64,000 bases of DNA, taken from Methanoculleus taiwanensis. GTDB lineage: Archaea; Halobacteriota; Methanomicrobia; Methanomicrobiales; Methanoculleaceae. The first letter of the stretch is position 1; the number at the start of each line of letters is the position of its first letter. The stretch lies in the NCBI RefSeq assembly GCF_004102725.1, contig NZ_LHQS01000003.1, forward strand, positions 245,889 to 309,888. The letters are read 5' to 3'. The notes under the pieces were generated by a model. It did not search any database, was not told where the DNA came from, and saw only the letters and a list, made by a program, of their open reading frames with translations. A program made the translations under genes and the position numbers. Of the stretch, positions 11,577-13,146 are shown one piece after another.

Positions 11577-12110
11577 ATGACCTGGATCGAGGATATTGTC
11601 ATCGGAAATCTCTTCGACTACGCGAGACTGCTCATCGTCGGCATCTTAGCCTACCTTGCTCTGGTGATCATTCTCCGCATCTCAGGTAAACGGACGCTCG
11701 CCGCGATGAACGCCTTCGACTTCATCGTCACCGTCGCCATCGGTTCGACCCTTGCAGCGGTCATTACGTCCACGACCGTATCGCTGCTCGAGGGAATCCT
11801 CGCACTCTTCATCCTCGTCGGCCTCCAGTACGTCGTCACCTGGTCATCGGTCAGATTTAATCTCGTCGAACGGATGGTCAAATCCGAACCGCGCCTCCTC
11901 TACTACGGGGGCGAACTGCTCCGGGACGCCATGAAGGCGGAACGGATCACCGAGGCGGAGATAGAGCAGGCGCTCAGGGCGCACGGGACAGACAGCCTTG
12001 CGAGCGTGCACGCGATCGTCCTCGAGACGAACGGGAACATATCGGTTCTCCCAGAGAGCGACAAAGGAAAGGTAACCTCACTCTCGAACGTCGTCGGACC
12101 GAGGCCATAG
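11577..12110 (+). CDS. YetF/DUF421-family membrane protein
   Basis: 177 aa. Two or three N-terminal helices (LLIVGILAYLALVIILRISGK, about 18-38; VAIGSTLAAVITSTTVSLLEGILALFILVGLQYVV, about 54-88) are followed by a soluble domain. The hallmark DUF421 sequences are GKRTLAAMNAFDFIVTVAIGS and, in the soluble part, EPRLLYYGGELLRDAMKAERITEAEIEQALRAHG. The family is widespread in Bacillus and in archaea; no enzymatic activity is established. It stands alone with its own promoter. Confidence 0.85.
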   Translation: MTWIEDIVIGNLFDYARLLIVGILAYLALVIILRISGKRTLAAMNAFDFIVTVAIGSTLAAVITSTTVSLLEGILALFILVGLQYVVTWSSVRFNLVERMVKSEPRLLYYGGELLRDAMKAERITEAEIEQALRAHGTDSLASVHAIVLETNGNISVLPESDKGKVTSLSNVVGPRP

Positions 12111-12207
12111 ACGGGCATAGGGCTTCCCACCGTTCTGAGCGGGAGGATTTCATCGCCTGGAATTGCACGGCAATCCGCAAGAGGCACAAGACTACTGAAA
12201 AGAACGG

Positions 12208-12350
12208 TGCCCGAGAGAGAAATGCATACCCTAGGTGCATTCCGGACTGCGGTGAGATGTCTTTGTCATGCATAAGTCTTGTACCGACTCGACTTATGCA
12301 TTCACCTCACCACGGCGATGCACCTTCAGGTGTGATCCCCCTCTCAGGCA
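12208..12350 (-). ncRNA. Candidate structured small RNA, copy 1 (143 nt)
   Basis: On the minus strand the RNA would start at 12350 with TGCCTGAGA and end with TCTCGGGCA, which pair as a 9-bp terminal helix (P1, one U-G). Inside are P2 (AGGTGCAT/ATGCACCT, 12318-12325 with 12233-12240), an 11-position P3, and P4, which closes on the loop GAGTCGGTACAA through TGCATAAGTC/GACTTATGCA (12269-12278 with 12291-12300). A TATA box (12371-12380) lies at the right distance for a start at about 12350. Copy 2 has the same helices with different bases. I do not recognise a known RNA family. Confidence 0.6.
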
Positions 12351-12370
12351 AACACTCCCATAGTCTCTAT

Positions 12371-12380
12371 ACTATATAAT
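12371..12380 (-). promoter_or_regulatory. TATA box for small RNA copy 1
   Basis: Minus-strand ATTATATAGT, centred about 25 nt before 12350, the first base of the conserved terminal helix of the RNA. Confidence 0.5.
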
Positions 12381-12686
12381 GATTTTTCAACAATTGCCAC
12401 AGCCAATACAACCAGGCATGACCAGGCCGCCCCTCACCCATCCGCGGCAGATCTGTGCAGAAACGATCGTTCCCACAGGGAGAGAACGCAAGGACGGTGA
12501 CAGGCGTCAGCAGCCAACCGGCATGGCGGCAGACCGTCAAGAGGCTCGCCACAGAAGGCGGGTATCCTAATAATCCCCCCTGTAATCTGCGATGCGGGAT
12601 TCAGGCGATTAAAAAGAACCGCGGCCTATGAGACAGCCCATCGACAGTGCCCCGGCAGAGTGCCGCACCATAACATAAGAAGAGGG

Positions 12687-12827
12687 TGCCCGAGAAATGA
12701 ATGCATACCAGAGGATGTATCCCGGATCAGGATATCGTGTCTTTGTCATTTACAGGCTTATACCGTCTCGACCTGTAAATTCACGGTATCCCGACGATGT
12801 ATCCCGGTCTGATCCTTTTCTCAGGCA
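12687..12827 (-). ncRNA. Candidate structured small RNA, copy 2 (141 nt)
   Basis: Same architecture as the copy at 12208-12350: terminal helix TGCCTGAGA/TCTCGGGCA (12819-12827 with 12687-12695), P3 GGATACCGTG/CACGATATCC (12782-12791 with 12730-12739, one A-C mismatch), and P4 ATTTACAGG/CCTGTAAAT (12748-12756 with 12772-12780) closing a loop almost identical to copy 1 (TCGAGACGGTATAAG). Single-stranded GACAAAGA and GGTATGCATT are also conserved. P4 differs from copy 1 at four positions, all compensated, and P3 at four more. A minus-strand TATA box lies at 12851-12860. In this copy P2 is weakened, and GGATCAG/CTGATCC could form instead. Confidence 0.6.
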
Positions 12828-12850: not shown

Positions 12851-12860
12851 CATATACTTT
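12851..12860 (-). promoter_or_regulatory. TATA box for small RNA copy 2
   Basis: Minus-strand AAAAGTATATGTG, centred about 27 nt before 12827, where the terminal helix of the RNA begins. The spacing matches copy 1 to within two bases. It is also downstream of the minus-strand ferredoxin gene, so it does not serve that gene. Confidence 0.5.
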
Positions 12861-12918
12861 TGTTGGCCATAACCTTGACAATTCCCTGCAAGCGGCACGG
12901 TGCCGTCCAGCAGCCCGA

Positions 12919-13146
12919 TCAATCCTCGACGAATATCACCGTCACCGGACACTGATCGGCGGCCTCACGGACACAATCCTCCTGCGATGCAGGTGCGTCC
13001 CCTTCTGCTGGGTCGTCCCCGAGCCGATACGGCTTGGTTACCTGGCTGAGCTCGTCGTTCGGATTCTGCTCAAAGAAATCGGGGCAGAGCAGCCAGCAGG
13101 CCTCGCAGCTGATACAGCCTTCCCGGTCGATCGTAACTTTCACCAT
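12919..13146 (-). CDS. Single-cluster [4Fe-4S] ferredoxin
   Basis: 75 aa. The cluster ligands are in ISCEACWLLCPDFF (CxxCxxxCP, residues about 11-18) and the distal CP (ADQCPVTVI, about 65); a second Cys (EDCVREA) lies shortly before. A 35-residue acidic insert separates the two halves, as in the Fer4_13-type ferredoxins of methanogens and halophiles with one cluster. It is a small cytoplasmic electron carrier with no redox partner next to it. GGAGG sits upstream of the ATG (around 13156). Confidence 0.88.
   Translation of the reverse strand: MVKVTIDREGCISCEACWLLCPDFFEQNPNDELSQVTKPYRLGDDPAEGDAPASQEDCVREAADQCPVTVIFVED

Follow-up and report, generated by a model that had tools for sequence, protein, structure and literature searches.

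What kind of gene, if any, occupies the protein-free gap between a YetF gene (11577-12110, plus strand) and a ferredoxin gene (12919-13146, minus strand) of Methanoculleus taiwanensis? The gap lies within the window, by which we mean the whole 64,000-nt stretch of DNA analysed (G000:C3:245889-309888 of a 2.75-Mb archaeal genome). A first-pass annotation had placed in this gap two tandem, structurally conserved RNA elements of ~142 nt, probably on the minus strand and 480 bp apart. Both elements are found on that strand at these places, with lengths of 143 and 141 nt and with first bases 477 bp apart, and they are almost certainly functional stand-alone RNA genes. The description of a tandem pair holds for this locus and is incomplete for the RNA at large, since the pair is local to the genus and the family to which it belongs is larger and mostly three-module elsewhere. 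The features of the locus are listed below in window coordinates; R1 denotes a covariance model built from 12 sequences and R2 a model of the module.

11577..12110, plus strand: YetF (DUF421) gene, assigned by Pfam and synteny; convergent downstream neighbour in many relatives
12197..12206, minus strand: T-rich stretch GTTCTTTTC directly past the 3' end of copy 1, a likely terminator
12208..12350, minus strand: RNA gene copy 1, a single-module form of 143 nt whose terminal helix has its first base at 12350; assigned by fold, covariance-model match and covariation in the 36-sequence alignment A5
12240..12316, minus strand: module of copy 1, comprising outer helix P3, inner helix P4, loop, A-rich one-sided bulge and tail; R2 match at G000:C3:258128-258204, E 3.2e-16
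12243..12246, minus strand: tail UCCG of copy 1, the 3' side of the loop-tail pseudoknot
12258..12267, minus strand: A-rich bulge GACAAAGACA of copy 1, between P4 and P3; conserved in alignments A3, A5 and A7
12283..12286, minus strand: loop CGGU of copy 1, the 5' side of the loop-tail pseudoknot
12372..12387, minus strand: promoter of copy 1, a TATA box with an A-rich element immediately upstream, at a position common to 52 aligned genes
12673..12685, minus strand: T-rich stretch CTCTTCTTATG past copy 2, a likely terminator
12687..12827, minus strand: RNA gene copy 2, of 141 nt, whose terminal helix has its first base at 12827; assigned by fold, model match and compensated pairs relative to copy 1
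12720..12795, minus strand: module of copy 2; R2 match at G000:C3:258608-258683, E 2.1e-13
12851..12861, minus strand: promoter of copy 2, a TATA box with an A-rich element immediately upstream
12919..13146, minus strand: ferredoxin gene (Fer4_15/Fer4_13), assigned by Pfam; constant same-strand upstream neighbour in Methanoculleus-type genomes

On the minus strand, copy 1 folds at -75.8 kcal/mol (z -9.15) and copy 2, over a 143-nt span, at -54.8 kcal/mol (z -5.25), energies that none of 200 shuffles equals in either case; folding of the plus strand is weaker (z -7.5 and -2.9 for copies 1 and 2, respectively). Covariance-model scores are 149 bits for copy 1 and 103.8 bits for copy 2. The terminal helix TGCCTGAGA/TCTCGGGCA is the same in the two copies, just as first described, and nine pairs are doubly changed between them with pairing kept (four in P4, three in P3, one in P1 and one in P2). 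The four compensated pairs originally counted in P4 are therefore all recovered, and those in P3 number three rather than the four claimed, accompanied by one-sided changes. A protein-coding origin was considered and rejected, as the lengths of such single-module genes run from 138 to 147 nt and a reading frame is not kept.

The minus strand of the window is the one that encodes the RNA, because cells with G-U pairs outnumber those with A-C, which correspond to G-U on the other strand, by 118 to 35 in one alignment and by 142 to 31 in another. This count, together with the position of the promoter, disfavours a plus-strand transcript and settles an assignment that had been given as probable. 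In each copy a TATA box stands 24-29 nt before the first helix base, where the first-pass annotation had noted one, and the arrangement is general: an A-rich stretch with a TATA-like box occupies -34 to -24 relative to the first base of P1 in all 52 aligned genes, the promoter lying about 26 nt ahead of that base, and a T-rich stretch follows within a few bases of the end of P1 in most of these 52 homologues.

The locus pair is accompanied by a third copy in the same genome (G000:C2:851037-851179), 91% identical to copy 1 and absent from the first description. Its promoter region is nearly identical to that of copy 1, and the ferredoxin and YetF neighbours are missing (L002 1450-1670), which suggests that a transcription unit was duplicated. 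The other sampled genome of the source genus (G001) likewise carries two tandem copies, and most genomes of Methanoculleus (genus g5 of family f1, the Methanoculleus family) have one or two copies by covariance model. A pattern search also finds the gene in M. sediminis S3Fa and M. chikugoensis. Homologues with covarying helices, which had been anticipated for related genomes, are found by covariance model in the Methanomicrobiales: a search of the order with R1 matches most genomes of family f1 with E values down to 1e-30, and other families more weakly. At E <= 0.01, the R2 module model finds a match in 77 of the order's 232 genomes, covering 14 of 40 genera and five families; family f6 gives no R2 match at this threshold among the same 232 genomes. 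In an even sample of the phylum (394 genomes), all 36 matches fall within the order and none outside it; the class holds just this order, so that the class-level and order-level samples are the same. Alignment A4 contained antisense matches and was left out of the counts. The RNA usually occupies a single locus per genome. That 155 of the 232 genomes are without a detected RNA indicates that it is not universally essential or that it has diverged beyond the models. Four nearly complete genomes of RNA-bearing genera (G005, G006 and G034 of genus g5, and G052 of genus g8) have no RNA found by any model used.

Most of the weak R1 matches proved to be modules within a longer gene, which was likewise outside the first description. 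The RNA thus exists in two forms. The short form, of 138-147 nt, contains one module of about 75 nt, in which the A-rich bulge GACAAAGA, on one side only, separates the outer helix from the inner one, and the inner helix is capped by a hairpin loop. The long form, found in families f4 and f5, measures 313-349 nt and has three copies of the module, spaced about 100 nt apart, within the same closing helix P1; it starts with TGCCTCAG and finishes with GGGGCA, with small variations, and f5 genomes usually carry all three modules by R2. We infer for it the order P1, P2, module 1, hairpin, module 2, hairpin and module 3. Comparative support for the helices is strong in both forms. In the short forms (A5, n=36), 94.5% of cells are in standard pairs, compared with 29-43% when the partners are slid, and 23 of 38 pairs are doubly changed. 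The corresponding values for the long forms (A7, n=21) are 88.8% of cells paired, against 36-43% when slid, and 47 of 99 pairs doubly changed, with 234 doubly changed cells where shuffling leads to an expectation of 80. Each of the six module helices of the long form is independently supported; the evidence for P1, P2 and the pair of short linker hairpins, which show little variation in this form, is mainly complementarity. Across genomes, modules that share a position are more alike (0.64-0.68 identity) than modules at different positions (0.54-0.55), from which it follows that each of the three has been maintained in its own right from a time before the sampled genera split, as is expected if each does a job. 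This natural series of one and three modules offers a ready system for studying gain and loss of function of a repeated RNA module.

A further feature beyond the original description is a pairing between the conserved CGGY of the hairpin loop and an RCCG tail just past the base of the module, which covariation supports. Pairs of this pseudoknot were scored by alignment columns, and a few alignment-shifted rows were read by eye from the sequences. Most long-form modules have CGGC/GCCG and the Methanoculleus family mostly CGGU/ACCG; in the source genus, as in copy 1 (CGGU/UCCG), it consists of three Watson-Crick pairs plus a U-U. The pairing takes place within a module, because only the matching module's own tail changes (module 1 of L068, CGGU/ACCG; module 3 of L064, CAGC/GCUG; module 3 of L069, UGGC/GCCA), and it allows a clean test of the structure by compensatory mutation. 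As the tip pairs with its own base across a hairpin of roughly 20 bp, the module probably bends sharply, and the one-sided bulge GACAAAGA would be the natural hinge of such a bend. On inspection by hand, the A-rich bulge does not fit the GA/GA pattern of a canonical kink-turn; given this lack of resemblance, no known RNA-binding protein can be named for it.

Gene neighbourhoods bear on whether the RNA acts on an adjacent gene or by itself. At the loci checked in family f1, with L002 and L053 as exceptions, the RNA, or the first copy of a tandem, is preceded at a distance of 71-120 nt by a same-strand ferredoxin gene. In one genome (G011), a joint duplication of ferredoxin and RNA has left two such pairs about 3.8 kb from each other (L071 1721-1861 and 5555-5695), which indicates that the pair is kept as a unit. 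These two observations favour the reading that the RNA belongs to the ferredoxin message, as its 3' untranslated or terminator element, and controls that gene in cis; we nevertheless consider this very improbable, because a TATA box of its own stands between the ferredoxin gene and each RNA, and ferredoxin is not nearby at the third copy or at any locus outside the Methanoculleus family. The neighbours there are unrelated and include a sodium symporter, a prismane protein, a 2-thiouracil desulfurase and an amino-acid permease, among others. Since the neighbours differ between genera, the RNA is best described as a stand-alone gene, neither a cis-element nor the remnant of a transposon, and as one whose product acts in trans. 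A riboswitch or other cis-regulatory RNA is rejected on the same grounds, as there is no constant position upstream of related genes and the RNA has its own promoter.

A small mobile element, with the terminal helix serving as terminal inverted repeats, would account for three copies in this genome, one of them dispersed together with its promoter. This reading we judge to be still more remote than the ferredoxin one, as most genomes have one locus in a syntenic place, compensatory change within the hairpins is strong, and the promoter is conserved. A transposon-derived miniature element in particular was rejected, the many dispersed, near-identical copies typical of such an element being absent. 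In a narrow test, two exact sequence patterns from the RNA found no match in viral contigs. Separately, the long-form RNA of genus g9 is followed on its 3' side by another conserved element, non-coding and with a strong hairpin, AAGGAGGCRTCCACCCTG...CAGGG...CCATGGATTGRAACGTTCAGTCGGTGACTTAGTTGGACACTAATAC (L056 around 2060-2190; also L057, L058, L065, L066, L075 and L097), which has no Rfam match in the loci searched.

Is the stand-alone RNA a member of a known family? The first-pass annotation did not recognise one, and neither do we. Neither the window region nor any of 13 loci from other families has a match to Rfam 15 (4227 families) at the gathering threshold, permissive searches with the short and long forms return chance-level matches only, and searches of the literature found no description of the RNA. 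Archaeal SRP RNA (RF01857) and RNase P RNA (RF00373) are structured housekeeping RNAs near the length of the long form; they have loci of their own, and the genome's own genes for both score over the cut-off elsewhere (G000:C1:166034-166344 and G000:C3:27545-27867). What is new is the RNA class, which no known family fits; genes for stand-alone structured RNAs are in themselves well known. In bacteria, the CsrB/RsmZ-type RNAs are stand-alone, protein-sequestering molecules with several similar hairpin modules, the number of which differs among relatives. The present RNA resembles them in standing alone and in its repeated modules of varying number, and would work alike if its module binds a protein. 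It differs in that its modules are large, two-helix and pseudoknotted, are held within one closing helix and are archaeal; GGA motifs of the CsrA/RsmA type are absent from its hairpin loops, where the motif is AACGGY or close to it, and no test made indicates homology. A second likeness is to GOLLD, ROOL and OLE, elaborate stand-alone bacterial RNAs with internal pairings that form RNA homo-oligomers (PMC12286853); the RNA described here shares the elaborate stand-alone character and the internal pairings, but is archaeal and has no Rfam match. The flpD motif (RF01737), a structured RNA candidate from Euryarchaeota (PMC2864571), is comparable in being a structured RNA of that group, but Rfam gives no match of the present RNA to it. 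The absence from Rfam of a promoter-driven, strongly covarying RNA carried by five families of one methanogen order suggests that RNAs as elaborate as the cores of known RNPs still lie hidden in archaea.

As to function, we propose that this new family of structured RNAs of the Methanomicrobiales is built on a self-pinned, bent module and serves in trans as a scaffold or sink for protein, an explanation that, taken as a whole, seems to us evenly poised between right and wrong. Every gene carries a TATA promoter of its own, P1 closes the RNA and the CGGY loop is pinned to the RCCG tail; a sharp bend at the A-rich bulge would then yield a compact unit exposing conserved unpaired bases. In trans, such an RNA may be the scaffold for an RNA-binding protein, or a sink for it, with one site per module, the long form offering three sites and the short form one. 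This protein-scaffold mechanism, drawn from sequence comparison, is somewhat less secure than the whole, and we favour it because the modules are repeated, are kept distinct by position and present conserved unpaired purines. The module number itself (one or three) is compatible with a scaffold and also with other roles. More tentatively still, the long form may be an archaeal RNA machine of roughly 340 nt, with three pseudo-symmetric self-pinned modules round a multi-way junction and with a single-module counterpart in the Methanoculleus family, that organises an order-specific protein complex, possibly with RNase III.

Two other roles in trans compete with a protein scaffold. The RNA could be a base-pairing regulator, in which the unpaired GACAAAGA and the flanks of the loop anneal to target messages, the helices serving only to stabilise and present these stretches; in its favour are the stand-alone gene, which has a promoter of its own and probably a T-rich terminator, and the conservation of single-stranded stretches. 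We regard it as unlikely, given that the pseudoknot takes up most of the conserved loop and that such a regulator would not usually carry one unpaired sequence three times over. A compact pseudoknotted fold with invariant unpaired bases could also belong to a ribozyme or a small-molecule-sensing RNA working alone, but the downstream gene is not constant and no Rfam ribozyme or riboswitch matches, so that we give this reading distinctly less credence than base pairing.

A candidate partner emerges from gene content. RNase III domains occur in 211 of the order's 232 genomes and in none of four archaeal control genomes. We defined full-length RNase III as the catalytic domain plus a C-terminal region resembling a double-strand-binding domain, and RNA-bearing genomes as the 77 with an R2 match plus G037 from R1 (n=78). 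Full-length RNase III is present in 66 of these 78 genomes, compared with 12 of the 154 others, and the genus majority table (8/5/1/26) gives p 1.3e-4, uncorrected for shared ancestry. Furthermore, in five genera of f5 a single contig carries both the RNA gene and the RNase III gene, at a distance of about 19-69 kb, and in the f4 genus the divergent neighbour of the RNA encodes a short RNase III-domain protein. On this basis the RNA could be a substrate, decoy or regulator of full-length RNase III, a role we rate as improbable, a little below base pairing and a little above a ribozyme or sensor. RNase III was a single candidate picked after its neighbouring position had been seen, with no control genes or species tree; p-values overstate the association because the choice of gene was post hoc, there was no control gene and ancestry was uncorrected. 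Among genomes at least 94% complete, three have the RNA without full-length RNase III (G046, G055 and G098) and five have full-length RNase III without the RNA (G005, G006, G034, G044 and G052), and there is no linkage in Methanoculleus or in complete f4 genomes. We offer the co-occurrence as a lead to a hypothetical link only; if true, the link would join a dedicated RNA to a nuclease of bacterial type that the four archaeal control genomes lack. Genomes of the order carry several RNase III-domain proteins, both short and full-length (loci L131-L150).
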